The notes beneath the pieces are model-generated. The model saw only the letters and a program-made list of their open reading frames with translations, ran no database searches and was not told where the DNA came from. A program made the position numbers and the translations under genes. 23,776 bases of DNA from a virus. Location: positions 1-23,776 of IMG/VR virus record IMGVR_UViG_3300008459_000403. One strand, written 5' to 3'. Every line of letters begins with the position of its first letter. The stretch's first letter is position 1. Shown piece by piece: positions 5,802 to 19,955 of the stretch.

Positions 5802-8327
5802 ATGCCATTAATTTTAAGATCAGTTAAAGGTTCAAAATTATCTATCCCTGAGATGGATGGTAACCTTACATATTTAGCTTCAACTTTATCAGGTTCAGTA
5901 ATACAAGTTACAGGTTCATTAATAAATGCTTCTAATACTCCAATTACTGCTTTATCTTTTTCAGGTGATGGAAGTCAATTAATAAATGTAACAGCATCAT
6001 ATATAACATCTTCTAATGTTTATGGTCCAAATGGAGCTAATAGTATATTAAGTTCATCTTATGCTTTAAGTGCTTCTCAAGCTGTGAGTAGTTCTTTTGC
6101 TGTAAGTTCTTCATACACGGTAAGTAGTTCTTTTGCTGTAAGTTCATCTTATGCTTTAAGTGCTTCATATGTAAATCCACTTAACCAAAATGTTCAAATT
6201 ACGGGCTCATTATTAATATCAACAGGAAGTTTTATAATAAGTACAGGTTCATTAAAACAATCAACAGCAGCTTATTATGTTACTGATGTAACTACAGGAG
6301 CAGCATCTGATATTTATTTTAATCTAAAAGATCATGATATTCAATTTATAGGAGTAAATAAAACATTTAATGGTGGAGGACCTACTGCTTCATTGCCTCT
6401 TTTATCTCAAAATGTTGGTAGAACTTTTCAAATAACTAATACTTACGGAAGTCAATTACATATTAGTAAATCTGTTTCTGATGGTTTATCTAATTTAAAA
6501 GATACATCAGTGGATGTAGGAGGAGTAGATATCCCATCAGGTGAAACTTTTAGATTTACAGCTTCACCAACTACAACAGGATATTGGTATTATGAAAATT
6601 TAAATATTGTAACTTCATCTTCATATGCTTTAAGTAGTTCATTTGCAACAACAGCATCTTATGCTAATACTATTAATCCTATTCAAACTTCTAGTATACA
6701 ATTAAGTGGTTCATTAACAATAAATGGACAATTAATAGTAGGAGGAAATACTATAACAGCAGCATCAGTAGGAGGCTCAGATACTCAAATCCAGTTTAAT
6801 AGTGGAAGTGTATTTGCTGGATTAGCAAGTTTAGCTTTTATATATCAAAGTCAATCTTTACAACAAGGTAACTCAACAATTGCAAATGGTCTTTATTCAC
6901 ATGCTGAGGGACAGCAAACTGAAACATCAGGATTTTATTCTCATGCTGAAGGATATCAAACTCTAGCATCAGGATCACACTCACATGCTGAAGGTGATCG
7001 AACTCTAGCATCAGGATCATACTCACATGCTGAAGGTCGTCAAACAACTGCTAGTGGTAATGCAAGTCATGCTGAAGGTCGTCAAACTCTAGCATCAGGA
7101 CCATGGTCACATGCTGAAGGATATCAGACCATAGCATTAGGTTCATACACACACGCTAAAGGTTTCTTAACTGTAGCTTTAGGTAATTATTCACATACCG
7201 AAGGAAATCAAACTGTAGCATCAGGAGCATATTCACATGCTGAAGGATATTTAACTACAACAAGAAATCAATATTCACATGCTGAAGGAGCTGTGACATA
7301 TGCTCTTCAAGAACATTCACACGCCGAAGGTTATGGTACAAGAGCTGATGGAATAGGTGCTCATGCTGAAGGTCAATCTACATACGCTTCTGGTCAATAT
7401 TCACATACTGAGGGATATTTAACTTCAGCCTCAGGATTTGGCTCTCATGCTGAAGGTCAATTCACACATGCTTCTGGTGGTCTATCACATGCTGAGGGAA
7501 CATTCACTGAAGCTCTTGGTGAGTTTTCACATGCTGAAGGAGCTTATAATGTAGCCTTGGGAACTAATGCTCATGCTGAAGGTATTTACACAATAGCATC
7601 AGGTAATACTAGTCACGCTGAAGGTAGTGGTTCTCAAGCATTAGGAGCAAGTTCTCATGCTGAGGGTTATTTAACTATAGCATCTGGTTCTTCTTCTCAT
7701 ACTGAAGGACAAGAAACAATAGCTTCGGGTTCTTTTTCTCATGCTGAAGGATATCTAACAATAGCCTCAGGTTCATATTCACATGCCGAAGGAGTAGGTA
7801 GTAAAGCTATAGGTGAATCTTCACATGCTGAAGGAAAGAGTACTATATCATTAGGTGATTATTCTCACGCTGAAGGCCAAACTACTATCGCTTATGATCT
7901 TGGATCACATGCTGAAGGCTTAAAAACATTAGCATTAGGTCAGTTTTCACATACTGAAGGATATTTAACTACAGCCTCAGGACTTTATTCTCATGCTGAA
8001 GGTTCAGGAAGTATATCATTAGGTATGGCTTCTTACGCTGGAGGAAACCGAACTATAGCATCTGGATCTCATCAAACAGTAGTAGGTACACTTAATGCTC
8101 AAGGAGACACTACAAGTTATTTTATTGTGGGAGGAGGAAATAAAAGTACTGGGGCTAGAAAAGATGCTTTTAAAGTAACACATAGTTCATCTATTATGGT
8201 AGCTACTCAAAGTTCTGCTCCTGGATGGGTAGGGATTGAAGGTGAGATGGTACCTGCGAATAATGGAGGCAGTTATTATATTTATACTTATATAGGTGGA
8301 GCATGGAGATCAGCTTCATTATCTTAA
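5802..8327 (+). CDS. trimeric-adhesin-like tail fibre with 28 HAEG repeats
   Basis: 841 aa. The N-terminus (MPLILRSVKGSKLSIPEMDGN) is a conserved start I know from phage fibre-like proteins and may attach to the virion. Residues about 85-125 are stalk repeats (SSSFAVSSSYALSASYV), like those of the 663-aa gene. Residues 365-756 are 28 gapless 14-residue units, consensus YSHAEGxxTxASGx. They resemble the YadA/Hep_Hag head repeats of trimeric autotransporter adhesins, which form a left-handed beta-roll. The array is capped by HQTVVGTLNAQGD. A C-terminal domain of about 70 residues follows (YFIVGGGN, DAFKVTHSSSIMV, GEMVPANNGGSYYIYTY) and may be the tip. The protein is probably a trimeric receptor-binding fibre. 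A late-type box precedes the gene. Confidence 0.75.
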   Translation: MPLILRSVKGSKLSIPEMDGNLTYLASTLSGSVIQVTGSLINASNTPITALSFSGDGSQLINVTASYITSSNVYGPNGANSILSSSYALSASQAVSSSFAVSSSYTVSSSFAVSSSYALSASYVNPLNQNVQITGSLLISTGSFIISTGSLKQSTAAYYVTDVTTGAASDIYFNLKDHDIQFIGVNKTFNGGGPTASLPLLSQNVGRTFQITNTYGSQLHISKSVSDGLSNLKDTSVDVGGVDIPSGETFRFTASPTTTGYWYYENLNIVTSSSYALSSSFATTASYANTINPIQTSSIQLSGSLTINGQLIVGGNTITAASVGGSDTQIQFNSGSVFAGLASLAFIYQSQSLQQGNSTIANGLYSHAEGQQTETSGFYSHAEGYQTLASGSHSHAEGDRTLASGSYSHAEGRQTTASGNASHAEGRQTLASGPWSHAEGYQTIALGSYTHAKGFLTVALGNYSHTEGNQTVASGAYSHAEGYLTTTRNQYSHAEGAVTYALQEHSHAEGYGTRADGIGAHAEGQSTYASGQYSHTEGYLTSASGFGSHAEGQFTHASGGLSHAEGTFTEALGEFSHAEGAYNVALGTNAHAEGIYTIASGNTSHAEGSGSQALGASSHAEGYLTIASGSSSHTEGQETIASGSFSHAEGYLTIASGSYSHAEGVGSKAIGESSHAEGKSTISLGDYSHAEGQTTIAYDLGSHAEGLKTLALGQFSHTEGYLTTASGLYSHAEGSGSISLGMASYAGGNRTIASGSHQTVVGTLNAQGDTTSYFIVGGGNKSTGARKDAFKVTHSSSIMVATQSSAPGWVGIEGEMVPANNGGSYYIYTYIGGAWRSASLS
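6894..8069 (+). repeat. 28 x 42-bp in-frame repeat array (HAEG units)
   Basis: The array is 1176 bp, exactly 28 x 42, with no insertion or deletion. Each unit encodes a 14-residue turn. Histidine is present in units 1-27 and becomes Tyr in unit 28 (SYAGG). The Glu of HAEG becomes Lys in unit 7. Units 2-5 and 19-21 are most alike at the DNA level (shared 'actctagcatcagga' and 'aatagc..caggttc' stretches), which suggests recent internal duplication. It is coding sequence, not a CRISPR: there are no constant repeats with unique spacers. Confidence 0.9.
8279..8286 (+). promoter_or_regulatory. possible late-type box inside the fibre gene's 3' end
   Basis: An exact ATATTTATA occurs at 8278-8286, inside codons for YIYTY, ending 54 bases before ATG 8341. 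It is the only exact copy found inside a gene, and it lacks the A-rich sequence that follows the intergenic copies. It could drive the 79-aa gene or be chance. Confidence 0.25.
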
Positions 8328-10391: not shown

Positions 10392-10880
10392 ATGGCAATA
10401 TTAGACGCAAACGAAATATTTTTCACAGCCTTTGAACCAAAACAGGCTAATAGATTCATCATGTATATGGATGGTGTTCCTAGCTACCTTATCAAAGGTG
10501 TAAACGCAGTCACATTATCTCAAGGTGAAGTAATATTAAACCACATTAACGTTTATCGTAAAGTTAAAGGTAAAACTACTTGGGGAGATATACAAATGAC
10601 ACTATTTGATCCAATTACTCCTTCTGGTGCTCAATCAGTAATGGAATGGGTTCGTTTACACCATGAATCAGTAACAGGTAGAGATGGATATTCTGATTTC
10701 TATAAAAAGGATTTAGTAATCGATGTTTTAGGCCCTGTAGGTGATATTGTAGGTGAATGGATTATCAAAGGCGCATACATTAAAGAAGCTAATTTTGGTG
10801 ATTATAACTGGGATACAGAAAACCAAGCAGTTAACATCACAATGACAGTAGCAATGGATTATTGCGTATTAAATTTCTAA
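10392..10880 (+). CDS. tail tube protein (gp19-like)
   Basis: 162 aa, nearly the length of T4 gp19 (163 aa). Recognisable family features are an N-terminal 'EPKQANRFIMYMDGVPSYLI', then 'VILNHINVYRKVKGKTTWGD', then 'MTLFDPITPSGAQSVMEWVR', and a closing strand 'NITMTVAMDYCVLNF'. These belong to the T4 gp19 branch of the tube/Hcp beta-barrel fold. Hexamer rings stack on the baseplate to form the channel through which DNA and the tape measure leave. It directly follows the sheath gene and is closed by a strong terminator, suggesting high and separately controlled transcription. G and C are used more at third positions here than in the fibre genes. Confidence 0.95.
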   Translation: MAILDANEIFFTAFEPKQANRFIMYMDGVPSYLIKGVNAVTLSQGEVILNHINVYRKVKGKTTWGDIQMTLFDPITPSGAQSVMEWVRLHHESVTGRDGYSDFYKKDLVIDVLGPVGDIVGEWIIKGAYIKEANFGDYNWDTENQAVNITMTVAMDYCVLNF

Positions 10881-10959: not shown

Positions 10960-11691
10960 ATGGAAAACCAGTTTACAACACCAACAGAAATCGTTGATTT
11001 ACCTTCAAAAGGTTTAGTCTACCCAGAATCAAATCCTCTATCAAGTGGGAAAATAGAAATGAAATATATGACGGCTAAGGAAGAAGATATTCTAACTAAC
11101 CAAAATTATATTAGTAAAGGCACCGTATTAGATGAGTTAATCAAATCGCTTATTGTAAGCGATGTAAAGTATGAAGATCTAATAGTAGGTGATAAAAACG
11201 CCTTATTAGTAGCAGCTCGTATTTTAGGATATGGTAAAGATTATAAATTTGAATGGGGTGGAGAAGAATATAATATTGATTTAACTACAATAGAAGATAA
11301 ACCAATAAATGAAAAACTATTTATTAAAGGTAAAAATGAGTTTTCTTTTACTCTCCCATCTACAGGTTTAGAAATTACTTTTAAACTATTAACAGGAGCA
11401 GATGAGAAAAAAATCAATGCTGAGTTAGAAGGTTTAAAGAAAATAAATAAAAATATTTCTCCTGAGTTGTCTACTCGTTTAAAATATATGATTACTTCAA
11501 TTGGAGGTAATAGAGAAGCAAAAGACATTCGTCAATTTGTTGATAACCAATTATTAGCTAGAGACTCTCGTGCATTACGTGAGTACATAAAGGAGGTGCA
11601 GCCAGACGTTGATCTGACCTTTTTTCCCGACGGAAGCGACTCAAAAGTTTCAATTCCAGTTGGACTTAGCTTTTTTTGGCCTGACTTCTGA
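10960..11691 (+). CDS. gp26-family baseplate/tail protein; zero-frame product of a likely frameshift pair
   Basis: 243 aa. It matches the T4 gp26 'T4 base plate protein' family: 'EIVDLPSKGLVYPESNPL' at the N-terminus, 'IEMKYMTAKEEDILTNQNYI' near residues 28-47, then 'VLDELIKSLIVSDVKYEDLI' and 'DKNALLVAARILGYGKDYKF'. The C-terminus 'IPVGLSFFWPDF' looks like the family's normal ending, so the zero-frame stop is probably real. That stop is TGA, the only TGA stop in this window. It lies between tube and tape measure, where most long-tailed phages encode tail-assembly chaperones. The last 100 bases are unusually GC-rich (47 of 100) and contain a T7 run at which ribosomes could enter the overlapping second frame. 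It may act in hub assembly, as in T4, or as a tail chaperone. Confidence 0.8.
   Translation: MENQFTTPTEIVDLPSKGLVYPESNPLSSGKIEMKYMTAKEEDILTNQNYISKGTVLDELIKSLIVSDVKYEDLIVGDKNALLVAARILGYGKDYKFEWGGEEYNIDLTTIEDKPINEKLFIKGKNEFSFTLPSTGLEITFKLLTGADEKKINAELEGLKKINKNISPELSTRLKYMITSIGGNREAKDIRQFVDNQLLARDSRALREYIKEVQPDVDLTFFPDGSDSKVSIPVGLSFFWPDF
11591..11690 (+). other. GC-rich island containing the frame overlap and T7 slip site
   Basis: Counted by hand, 47 of these 100 bases are G or C, and 28 of the first 50, compared with roughly 30% elsewhere. Frame +1 is open from 11618, so the dual-frame region is 11618-11691. Two candidate slip sites exist: TTT-TTT-CCC at 11620-11628 and AGC-TTT-TTT-TGG with T7 at 11671-11677. 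A possible hairpin pairs 11645-11653 with 11660-11667 (one bulge, loop TTCCAG), ending 3 bases before the T run. An AAGGAGGTG sequence at the island's start is not followed by a start codon. Confidence 0.6.
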
Positions 11692-11959
11692 GATAACACC
11701 TCAGTATAGATCTAATTTATTTACTCAAATTCATGAAATAGTTTTTCATGGTCAAGGTGGCTATGATTGGGGAACAGTCTACAATATGCCTATTTGGTTA
11801 CGTAAGTTTACTTATCATAAATTAAAAGAATATTATGATAAACAAAACTCACAAAACAATGAAGATTTAGGTTCTCAAACTCAAAAAGTTAAGGATGGTA
11901 AAATAGAATTACCTTCTCACTTTAAAGGTCAAACAGGTAAACGAGCACCTAAATATTAA
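11660..11959 (+). CDS. downstream frame of the chaperone-like pair, probably reached by +1/-2 frameshift
   Basis: This frame continues to 11959 and overlaps the gp26-family gene. The only possible independent start nearby is TTG 11660, with no ribosome site and in the conserved C-terminal region of the other protein, so separate initiation is unlikely. Reading from the T7 run gives LSFF-GLTSEITPQYRSN, then 'IHEIVFHGQGGYDWGTVYNM', 'PIWLRKFTYHKLKEYYDKQN' and a polar tail. The predicted joined protein is 332 aa with a +1 shift (10960-11676 plus 11678-11959) or 333 aa with a -2 shift. I recognise the GGYxWxxVYxMPxWLRxFTYxK block from T4-like phage hub-assembly/chaperone-type proteins. If the T run is really six T, this would be a single continuous gene. 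Confidence 0.7.
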   Translation: MDLAFFGLTSEITPQYRSNLFTQIHEIVFHGQGGYDWGTVYNMPIWLRKFTYHKLKEYYDKQNSQNNEDLGSQTQKVKDGKIELPSHFKGQTGKRAPKY

Positions 11960-11999: not shown

Positions 12000-14366
12000 A
12001 TGGCTAGTAATCAATTATCAGCTGCAGAATTAGCAGAATTAGTACAATATTATAAACAGATTGAAAATTTAAGTCAATCTGCAGCTACGAACGCTGCTAA
12101 TTTAGCTCAACAACAAGGCAATGCTCGTATCCAATTAGAGCGTTTACGTAGAGAATATCAAGATTGGACAAGTGATATTGATAGTTCATTACAAAGTTTT
12201 AAAGAAATATCATCTGAACTTAATAAATTTAAAACAGGAATAAATGATTCTAAAAAATCTTACTCAAATTTAGAATCATTAGCTCAAAAACTTCAATATC
12301 ATCAAAAAGGTATATCTACTTTATCATCTAGAGAATTAAGTAATCTTCAAAAGAAAGCTAAACAACAAATCAAGAATTTAGAAACTTCCCAAAATACATT
12401 AACAAATGATAGAACTCGATTACTAGAAGAACAAAGAAGATATGAAAATATTATATACCAAAAAGAAATATTAGGTCAATCTACTGATAGAGAATATAAA
12501 AAATTAATTGAAATTGAAAGTACTCTTAGTCAAATTAGTAAATCATATGCTTTAAATCAAGAACTTTTAGATAGTGAAAATCAATCTTTAGAACATACTT
12601 TAGCAACAATATCTGAAACATTAAAAAAACAGAAGGCAATTGAAAAATCTATGGGTCTTACTGGGGCTTTAATGAAAGGTATAAGTAAAATTCCGTTTTT
12701 AGGAGACTTACCAGGAATGAGAGAAGTATTAGGTGAAGTTGAGGTTGAAATAAGCGCGATCCAAAAAAATACAGGTAAAACGGTCTCTAGAACTGAGGCT
12801 ATGGGAATGGCTTTTAAAAAGATGGGACCTGTTATTAAAGATGCTTTTACAGATCCTTTAGTAACTATTGGATTATTAGTTAAAGGTTTTAAAATGTTCT
12901 TAGAGTTAGGATTTGCTGTTGATAAACAAGTAACAGAAATGAGTAAATCTATGGCTGTTTCTAAAGATGTAGCGGCTTTAACTCGAGATAGATTTGTTGA
13001 GATACAAAGTTCAAGTAATAATCTTTTAGAAACAACTAATAATTTAGTTGATGCACAAGGACAATTAGCTAAATCTTTTGGTACTACTTTAGGATTTACA
13101 GATGCTCAATTAAAAGATCAAATAATGTTAACCAAACAAGTTGGTCTTGAAGAAGAATCAGCAGCTGGTTTACAACAATTAGCTTTAGCAAATGGACAAT
13201 CAGCTAATGACATTTTAAAATCTACAGTTAAACAAACTGCTGCTTTAGCTAGACAAACAGGTGTTCAATTAGATAATAGAAAAGTATTAACAGAAGTAGC
13301 AAAAGTATCAGGACAATTAAGATTACAATATCAAAATAATCCTGAGTTAATAGCTAAGGCAGTTATACAAACTCAAAAATTAGGTATTAGCTTTGAAACA
13401 GCTAAAAATATGGCTAATAAATTATTAGATTTTGAAAATTCTATCTCTAGTGAATTAGAAGCAGAATTATTAACAGGTAAACAACTTAATTTAGAAGAAG
13501 CTAGATTATTAGCATTACAAGGTAAATCTGCTGAAGCTGCTGCTTTAATAGCAGAACAAGTAGGTAGTGCTGCTGAATTCTCAGAACTAAATGTTATAGC
13601 TCAACAATCATTAGCTGAGGCTGCTGGAATGAGTGCTGATGAATTAGCTAATTCATTAGTATACCAAGAAAATTTAGCGGAATTAGGTAGTCAAGCTAAA
13701 CAACAAATTGAAGAACAAGTTCAAAAATTAAAAGATCAAGGTAAAACAGAAGAAGCTAACCAGTTGATGAGATCAATAGGAAATGCTGATTCTGCTGAAG
13801 CAGCTTTAAAAGAATTAGATGCTCAAAATACATTTAATGCTGCTGTTGATAAATTAAAAGGTATGCTATCAGATATAGTTAGTGGACCAGCTCAAAAATT
13901 TGTTGATTTATTAGGTAAACTAGCTTCAAACGCTTCTTTAATTAAAGGTATATTTTATACAATAGTAGGTTTAGCAAGTGCTTTAGCTGCTTCTATGATT
14001 GTAACAGCAGCTGTCACTAATCCTGCTGGTTTTTTAATAGGATTAGCTGCTGCATTTGGAGGTATAGCATTTTTAAAATCAGCAACGAGTACTCCACCTC
14101 CAATTGAGAAAAAAGGAGATGTAATGTATGATCCTAATGGAGGCCTTATAGTATCTTCCCCTCAAGAAGGAGCATTATTTCAATTAGCTAAAAAAGACGG
14201 AATGATGGCAGGTCCTGTAACTACTAATACTGGAGGTGGAGGAGAAAACAATAAAGCTATAGAAGAACAAAATGCATTATTTGAAAAATTCATTAATAGA
14301 CCTGTAAAAGTAGACGTAGGTAATTTCTTTAATGACTCAGCTAGATCAGCAGTTCGAATTCAATAA
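12000..14366 (+). CDS. tape measure protein (gp29 position)
   Basis: 788 aa. Residues 1-220 are strongly helical and rich in Gln, Ser, Leu and Lys with coiled-coil spacing. The middle is Ala/Gln-rich helix, for example 'LEEARLLALQGKSAEAAALI'. Residues about 643-697 are hydrophobic (GIFYTIVGLASALAASMIV, then GFLIGLAAAFGGIAF), as is usual in tape measures. The C-terminus contains 'GDVMYDPNGGLIVSSPQEGA', a short segment I often see near the ends of these proteins. It lies inside the tube, sets tail length and probably enters the host membrane on ejection. At about 0.15 nm per residue it would give a tail near 118 nm, slightly longer than T4. It follows the chaperone-like pair, as expected. Confidence 0.85.
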   Translation: MASNQLSAAELAELVQYYKQIENLSQSAATNAANLAQQQGNARIQLERLRREYQDWTSDIDSSLQSFKEISSELNKFKTGINDSKKSYSNLESLAQKLQYHQKGISTLSSRELSNLQKKAKQQIKNLETSQNTLTNDRTRLLEEQRRYENIIYQKEILGQSTDREYKKLIEIESTLSQISKSYALNQELLDSENQSLEHTLATISETLKKQKAIEKSMGLTGALMKGISKIPFLGDLPGMREVLGEVEVEISAIQKNTGKTVSRTEAMGMAFKKMGPVIKDAFTDPLVTIGLLVKGFKMFLELGFAVDKQVTEMSKSMAVSKDVAALTRDRFVEIQSSSNNLLETTNNLVDAQGQLAKSFGTTLGFTDAQLKDQIMLTKQVGLEEESAAGLQQLALANGQSANDILKSTVKQTAALARQTGVQLDNRKVLTEVAKVSGQLRLQYQNNPELIAKAVIQTQKLGISFETAKNMANKLLDFENSISSELEAELLTGKQLNLEEARLLALQGKSAEAAALIAEQVGSAAEFSELNVIAQQSLAEAAGMSADELANSLVYQENLAELGSQAKQQIEEQVQKLKDQGKTEEANQLMRSIGNADSAEAALKELDAQNTFNAAVDKLKGMLSDIVSGPAQKFVDLLGKLASNASLIKGIFYTIVGLASALAASMIVTAAVTNPAGFLIGLAAAFGGIAFLKSATSTPPPIEKKGDVMYDPNGGLIVSSPQEGALFQLAKKDGMMAGPVTTNTGGGGENNKAIEEQNALFEKFINRPVKVDVGNFFNDSARSAVRIQ

Positions 14367-19500: not shown

Positions 19501-19955
19501 GTGTTAACGCTAATAGATTAAGAGAAGCTATAAAAAGTGCTGGGTATTTAGATGGACGACCTGAAAAAGGTACTCAATTAGACGATTCTGGGTATGATAT
19601 TTTACCAGCTACAGCGGATGCAGGAATTGCTTTTATTAATGATTTAAAAAAACGGTATCCTACTTATAAAATTATTTTCACAGCAGGGAATGATCTTTGG
19701 CATGTTGAGAATAGTAAAAGTAATATTCACCCATCAGGAAAAGCTCTTGATATTTCTATTGTCGGGGTAGACCAAACTAAAGTTAAAAATCCTACAGGAG
19801 AAAATGCCTATGTTGCTAAACCATATACTGACCTAGAAAAATTACTAATTAATGATATTGCAGCTATAGCTAGGAAATATTTTAAAAGTGTAGGTGATGA
19901 ATATCAATTCCCAGTTAAATGGGCTACAGCAGGACATATACATATGAATATATAA
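16521..19955 (+). CDS. baseplate hub protein with C-terminal M15-like peptidase (tail lysin)
   Basis: 1144 aa, the largest gene here. The N-terminal region includes 'PPPGILSVDVRALNRGSLRE', 'KVIDTLFLKLRYSLLLEWGH' and 'ITVKAISTGDVIESLKVNTN'. I associate this layout with large hub proteins of T4-like phages of Bacteroidota and marine hosts. About residues 920-970 are beta-rich with 'IRFIIRGVNHKIDKNGWETS'. A Ser/Thr/Pro-rich linker follows near 975-995. Residues about 995-1144 look like a D-Ala-D-Ala/L-Ala-D-Glu peptidase of the M15 type: H1070 and D1077 in 'HPSGKALDIS', and H1139/H1141 in 'AGHIHMNI', are the likely zinc ligands. The domain would cut host peptidoglycan at injection, as T4 gp5 lysozyme does by another chemistry. 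Confidence 0.75.
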   Translation: MALLGESFEPWVKEQIDLRQDILSGKKDNIGSSFTRDQELKYTLSKSPFIRLTSGVNIDSGDSGTAKIQNLGFKDDATNYLGNKLASKYILFSSRFDNEFTKGVNYETLSPSYGFSSDPEYGLVPPPGILSVDVRALNRGSLREATIKIVCHNLSQFKVIDTLFLKLRYSLLLEWGHTVYFNNDGSLASPLSIPNISTEFLKGDFTQETLLDKIESEKKKSFGNYDAFFGIIKNFDWQLLENGSYDITVKAISTGDVIESLKVNTNYPFSKRTEGDNPEPIYLKSTLHKILGDIRQKINDGGPGAPGYLNGFKTSPTDNSLDTGTISSFTDFLYNYKRSGDNINVTSPNDDLTTNEGFRIWFANLEKIKGADGKEITAIQYYIKLGTLLRIIESFLIYYDKTKKDGTDGNNPPVFKIDHNYNTNFCLTTLTHLSVDPRVCIIPLSYDSKLNANLAGEYTKVTKLYRYTFNITRPNNEKWIESDEAFEKEEFLSEDQIPEGVEINRLAEVYSVSDINVNNLNFTKRITENATLGFEKTLDAPLSDLDKTDLESTKQQIKSILSNAFLNNPRGSIDNAGPYVNGLLSNVQTQYINETVKKEGLGTLNYLLGLDIKENVDYKVNRFLTGYVEIPSVSYYKNENTAAILENLYLEQVNNQVGGDNLFRSTDDALKAKTMHIQVNIGYIIKTLDNNIDEEGNISVYDFLKELMSGIKGSLCNINDFEIVYEESTNTFSIIDNALLASLYKNGDDARFNINLLKNNSIDPDISNGFIKGNGSFITNFSLKTELFSRIANTIAIGAQANGNTTISNSTAFSEFNRALTDRVLTTKVNKNDPEENDKGVDIKFKQLYSNYIKFRTNYFTRIINESDVSAAQRYVREIIQYELGEYTKSKRIPGVGFIPLNLQLTMDGLSGMKIYQTFDIDETLLPDEYKSRIRFIIRGVNHKIDKNGWETSVETLSLPKEKKIDYSVKLTTIPKDASGGIKSKRTPTAPVGSVNANRLREAIKSAGYLDGRPEKGTQLDDSGYDILPATADAGIAFINDLKKRYPTYKIIFTAGNDLWHVENSKSNIHPSGKALDISIVGVDQTKVKNPTGENAYVAKPYTDLEKLLINDIAAIARKYFKSVGDEYQFPVKWATAGHIHMNI

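Follow-up and report, generated by a model that had tools for sequence, protein, structure and literature searches.

A conserved, very probably programmed +1 frameshift yielding G and G-T tail assembly chaperones of the T4 type

The window analysed here, a 23,776-base IMG/VR virus record, carries a T4-type tail block in the order sheath, tail tube, gp26-type protein and tape measure, with gp32-like and UvsX-like genes at the window end; gp18, gp19, gp32 and UvsX were the T4-like core genes recognized in it. Between the gp19-like tail tube gene (10392–10880; phrog_4542, 1.2e-20) and the tape measure gene (12000–14366; phrog_167, 9.1e-6; a tape measure is annotated at this place in the phages immuto and SP-15) lie two overlapping frames, G and T, in the manner of lambda-type G/GT loci, and the features of this locus described below are located, like these genes, on the plus strand. 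G (10960–11691) encodes a 243-aa gp26-type protein, the putative short form (TAC-N) of a tail assembly chaperone, and ends in SFFWPDF followed by TGA, the only TGA among the stop codons of the 18 genes called in the window (one is TAG, the rest are TAA). The sequence-only reading of this stretch had described both the normal-looking FFWPDF end and the singular TGA stop, and its coordinates proved right. The second frame lies +1 relative to G, is open from 11618 to a TAA at 11957–11959 and carries GGYDWGTVYNMPIWLRKFTY, the sole start listed for it in the window being a TTG at 11660; this agrees with the earlier description of a conserved-looking block that has no credible start of its own. The part of this frame that extends G, termed T (11678–11959, 93 aa), begins directly behind a run of seven T's at 11671–11677, which had also been located correctly. 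A G-T fusion (TAC-NC; 10960–11959) is predicted from a +1 shift in which 11677 is skipped; translation computed with one four-base step gave 332 aa, while a -2 shift would give 333 aa. The product lengths of 243 and about 332 aa anticipated previously are thus those computed for G and for the +1 fusion.

Several comparisons place G in the gp26 family. The protein matched Pfam PF12322 with 26.4 bits, above the cut-off of 24.5, and phrog_150 (baseplate hub) with 1.8e-10. For structural comparison, G and T were folded separately and not as a G-T fusion, and the AF2 model of G (pLDDT 90) had its best viral-model matches (Foldseek, BFVD) among gp26-type hub proteins, e.g. that of SP-15 (2.4e-16). 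Comparison of the model with 997 solved chains returned as the two best 3klu (YqbN; Z 5.8), which we take to be an XkdN-type chaperone, and 2ob9, the HK97 tail assembly chaperone (Z 4.8), a modelled resemblance that would be little proof if taken alone. In T4, gp26 (short) and gp51 (long) have reportedly been described as tail assembly chaperones by Vladimirov, Gautam and Davidson in 2022.

T is predicted to form a helical domain (AF2, pLDDT 71). A GGY...MPxWLR block is conserved in it, and 57% of the substitutions seen beyond the G end in a comparison of similar loci fell at third positions of the T frame. Among viral proteins, the T model was matched best (Foldseek probability 0.97, E 0.75) by one of 57 aa from the T4-related phage pf16, and the search against the PDB yielded unrelated-looking rows only (best Z 4.5). 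The pf16 record contains a 57-aa ORF, pf16_157, directly behind the gp26-type gene and in its -1 frame, which we infer from its length to be the matched protein.

Relatives were fetched via G, via T and via an alignment of T, resulting in 175 distinct loci with both parts; the locus counts given here treat loci as independent and ignore phylogeny. T was found in the +1 frame of G, with the overlap kept, in all 175 loci, and a [C/T]TT-T motif stood at the junction in 174 of them. The dominant variant was TTT TTT TGG CCT (164 loci), followed by TTT CTT TAC (3) and TTT CTT TGG (2), with all others occurring singly; the one exception to the motif, L163, has TTT CTA and allows +1 re-pairing onto TTC. 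With T in the +1 frame throughout the group, none of its loci has the -1 downstream ORF that belongs to a canonical -1 heptamer. A homopolymer in a metagenomic contig readily raises the suspicion of gene decay or of an error in sequencing or assembly, but the identical frame break recurs in cultured phages and in these 175 loci, which come from many samples, and some of the sites are not homopolymers. The relatives refute this explanation, the probability of which we regard as practically nil: among those examined, none has six T's that would join both parts in one continuous gene.

The layout is kept in records of cultured phages or complete sequences, namely in Flavobacterium phage immuto (TTT CTT TGG), Microcystis phage Mel-JY01 and Rhodothermus phage RM378 (both TTT TTT TGG), Streptococcus phage GXN1 (TTC TTT CGT), Bacillus SP-15 (TTT TTT CAC) and Listeria LIS04 (TTT TTT AGT), as well as in the metagenomic LR756508 (TTT CTA TTC). 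In the window, the P-site Phe codon at 11674–11676 of the slip site TTT TTT T (11671–11677) can re-pair at 11675–11677, with GGC (11678–11680) as the next codon, and at each of these sites tRNA-Phe or tRNA-Leu can move ahead by one base and pair again (UUU-U, CUU-U or UUU-C). The last two re-pairings are those of prfB (RF2), in which CUU-U gives UUU, and of influenza PA-X (UUU-C). No classical +1 stimulator was found: the A site holds TGG, TAC, TAT or TTC among the site variants and never a slow stop codon, and no Shine-Dalgarno sequence at prfB spacing is present in the window, so that the site differs from prfB and PA-X in having neither an A-site stop codon nor a Shine-Dalgarno spacer.

The isolate variants also bear on the direction and nature of the slip. 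A backward shift of two bases, in which tRNA-Phe would slip on the T7 run to give a product with one extra Phe, reaches the same frame, is permitted by the seven T's and has a precedent in the tail chaperone of Mu, for which the 2016 review by Atkins (PMC5009743) is the source in its part on this phage. We nevertheless consider it improbable, as TTT CTT TGG/TAC (immuto and few other loci), TTT CTA TTC (L163) and TTC TTT CGT (GXN1) permit +1 but not -2 re-pairing. A T7 run in most loci would equally suit transcriptional slippage, in which some mRNAs lacking one U would encode G-T in one frame; bacterial examples on T/A runs are known, slippage of this kind being a topic of the same review (PMC5009743). 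This possibility appears to us marginally less probable still, since the layout persists where the longest T run is three (TTTCTTT, TTTCTATT, TTCTTTCG). As several isolate sites make -2 re-pairing impossible and several have no T run longer than three, a +1 shift is favoured over -2 and ribosomal over transcriptional slippage, while sequencing error is excluded. Of the two directions that the sequence-only reading had offered for the T7 run, the +1 slip is hence favoured and the -2 slip improbable, given that the CTT-T, TTT-C and TTT-CTA variants allow re-pairing in the forward direction only. Its other proposed shift site, TTT-CCC at 11623–11628, was rejected, because in relatives it is separated from the T run by +1-frame stops, and several relatives do not have the T's of that site.

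The T run itself could partly reflect codon bias and is weak evidence if taken alone, because these genomes mostly encode FF as TTT TTT elsewhere too (117 of the 124 other pairs). The codon choice after the site provides the stronger argument. The Pro codon that follows is CCT in 173 of 174 loci versus 35% in the remainder of G; for the Asp codon, GAC is used in 163 of 165 loci versus 23% in the remainder. These bases are demanded by the T frame (GGC CTG AC., G-L-T), which suggests that T-frame translation begins directly at the T run; the dual-coding signature starts immediately after the slip site. Upstream of the run, the T frame was not conserved in the relatives compared: 13 loci carry a +1-frame stop 9–15 nt before the shift point, and 17 distinct loci offer no ATG, GTG or TTG for T (examples of a stop or a missing start are L054 and L064).

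Thus, independent initiation of T cannot be general. A reading without any frameshift, in which T is an independent gene initiated in the window at TTG 11660, would fit the in-frame TTG, GTG or ATG present somewhere in many relatives and the existing annotations, in which the T frame appears as a small separate hypothetical ORF in immuto (L161 3854–3964), RM378 (L165 3701–3877) and SP-15 (L258 2321–2440). Against this stand the loci just mentioned, the finding that no start for T is positionally conserved among relatives, and the constraint on G codons that sets in directly at the T run, and we therefore consider a separate gene very improbable. The public annotations of immuto, RM378 and SP-15 have missed the putative frameshift, and in LIS04 the T frame is unannotated.

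Upstream of the slip site lies a GC-rich stretch at the G end (11626–11670), which we regard as a candidate 5' stimulatory element. The sequence-only reading had called the G-T overlap unusually GC-rich; it does exceed the window in GC (0.432 versus 0.309), but 4.5% of 74-nt windows reach this value, which makes the excess modest when considered alone. Comparison among relatives is more telling, as GC is higher at the G end than in the remainder of the gene in 173 of 174 relatives and, across 118 diverse loci, the GC-ending codons at -16 to -1 before the site number about three times what the amino acids would predict. Together, these two features suggest selection on the nucleotide sequence of this stretch. 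The hairpin noted previously just upstream of the site (11627–11663) can indeed form, with a minimum free energy of -11.5 kcal/mol and a dinucleotide-shuffle z of -1.94 (z about -2 in the window's clade), but it does not stand above synonymous-codon controls. Folding z-scores upstream and downstream of the site likewise do not exceed those of control regions; against synonymous-codon controls the mean z was -0.38, with -0.02 to -0.77 in control regions. The consensus structure is weak, with three pairs only. A (-19,-10) pair covaries (138 paired of 174 versus 103 in shuffles) by a statistic that ignores relatedness. Conserved RNA structure was on these grounds rejected.

T4 itself has two PF12322 genes, 26 and 51, whereas RM378, SP-15, LIS04, GXN1, Bellamy and pf16 have one each. 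Because immuto and Mel-JY01 escaped the PF12322 scan, copies of G were recounted with our own alignment of G, which found exactly one G in each of ten +1-group genomes or large contigs, including these two phages; a T profile matched in six of the ten, with one T each. With a single G and at most one T per genome, the frameshift would be the sole source of the long form, and the T4 arrangement of separate PF12322 genes with a fused long form occurs in none of the ten.

Relatives of the Synechococcus phage Bellamy and of pf16, in contrast, place a homologous T in the -1 frame (117 of 121 distinct loci), and T TTT TTY stands at the G end in those listed. The Bellamy-type and pf16-type loci are numbered L260–L421 (e.g. 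L262 and L342). From this layout, T4-like cyanophages and pf16 relatives likely employ a programmed -1 frameshift. Profile comparison (hhalign) matched the +1-type T with the -1-type T, with none of 40 column shuffles scoring as well, and the -1-type T with the C-terminal extension of T4 gp51 (E 7e-9, again 0 of 40 shuffles as good). Compared directly, the +1-type T and the gp51 C-terminus scored no better than shuffles, and the +1-type T is linked to the gp51 extension via the cyanophage T, which matches both. A comparison of SP-15-type with cyanophage-type T was not relied on, as 1 of 40 shuffles scored spuriously high. Judged from these sequence comparisons, one chaperone family appears to use -1 shifting, +1 shifting or gene duplication. 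More tentatively, and rather less likely than not in our view, the same T-rich junction may serve for -1 shifts in cyanophages and pf16 and for +1 shifts in the present group, and may have been replaced by duplication in T4, while a selected GC-rich stretch of ~48 nt upstream in the +1 group, perhaps as a hairpin behind the ribosome, would push the ribosome forward. To our knowledge, a 5' stimulator of this kind has not been described for tail chaperone frameshifts.

Taken together, a conserved programmed +1 frameshift that yields T4-type G and G-T tail assembly chaperones is in our view very likely the correct explanation, and the sequence-only interpretation is largely upheld. Most ribosomes would translate G to its TGA, whereas in a minority the P-site tRNA-Phe, paired with the second TTT of AGC TTT TTT TGG, would slip +1 onto TTT; these ribosomes would then read GGC CTG A.. 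as T-frame codons and complete the G-T protein. The lambda gpG/gpGT pair suggests a division of work in which G would coat the tape measure and tail tube subunits would be recruited by the T portion. Comparison of the loci shows the conserved frame offset, the site, the dual coding that starts there, the single gene copy and the homology of G to gp26/gp51; we infer the ribosomal nature and +1 direction of the slip, how efficient it is, what the GC-rich stretch does and the chaperone function.

The locus resembles lambda gpG/gpGT and its equivalents in P2, HK97 and Mu in its position between tail tube and tape measure genes and in pairing a short protein with a form extended by frameshifting at the 3' end of G, and it would thus be a new variant of this system that presumably works alike. 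It differs from lambda and P2 (-1) and Mu (-2) in the +1 shift, in a G that belongs to the PF12322 gp26 family and in having no canonical heptamer. With T4 gp26/gp51 it shares a PF12322 member and an extension that occupies the position of the gp51 C-terminus, but T4 has two genes and no frameshift, while here one gene overlaps a +1 frame. The cyanophage/pf16 locus has homologous G and T and a T-rich site at the same junction, and differs in the -1 position of T.

The relevant part of the Atkins review describes long-tailed phages as widely sharing the G-T frameshift, 'except T4' (PMC5009743), and T4-like chaperones are summarized in the PRFect paper as a short gene plus a fused long gene (PMC10274946, citing Vladimirov et al. 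2022). The link between gp26 and tail chaperones has, going by that citation, already been published. The sequence-only reading had known of no documented case in the T4 lineage, which agrees with 'except T4' and with the title of the 2022 paper, but not with the -1 layout of the cyanophages nor with a 2025 paper (PMC12846349) that, again citing Vladimirov et al. 2022, refers to poly-T -1 signals in T4-like phages; a -1 case may therefore already be known. For a +1 case in T4-like phages, our literature search, to which the full text of Vladimirov et al. 2022 did not belong, found no report. Forward shifts in tail chaperone genes are on record for other phage lineages, namely as likely in the haloarchaeal myovirus HSTV-2 (Atkins 2016, PMC5009743, in its remarks on this virus) and in the SEA-PHAGES training set as outlined for PRFect (PMC10274946). 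If our reading is correct, a conserved +1 frameshift has gone unannotated in a wide group of phages with T4-type chaperones, the long-sequenced RM378 and SP-15 among them. Such a group would bridge tail assembly of the lambda and T4 types and indicate that the direction of shifting can differ between homologous genes. It also identifies cultured phages in which +1 slipping is testable.

Some further observations were made alongside this analysis. L166 (LR756511; 3769 onward), a large-phage relative without a +1 T, has a T-like ORF whose start may be an ATG that overlaps the stop codon of G, and T may be a separate gene there. Inside G, AAGGAGGTG (11590–11598) is a perfect anti-16S complement located ~75 nt upstream of the slip site, which is too distant for a known frameshift stimulator. 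At the C-terminus of a 1144-aa protein, an HPSGKALDIS...HIHM pattern (19600–19955) is, to our eye, reminiscent of peptidase M15; this family did not come up when the full-length protein was scanned with Pfam. The protein encoded at 5802–8327 contains many SHAEG repeats, which we take to resemble the head repeats of YadA-like adhesins, and is presumably a tail fibre or adhesin.
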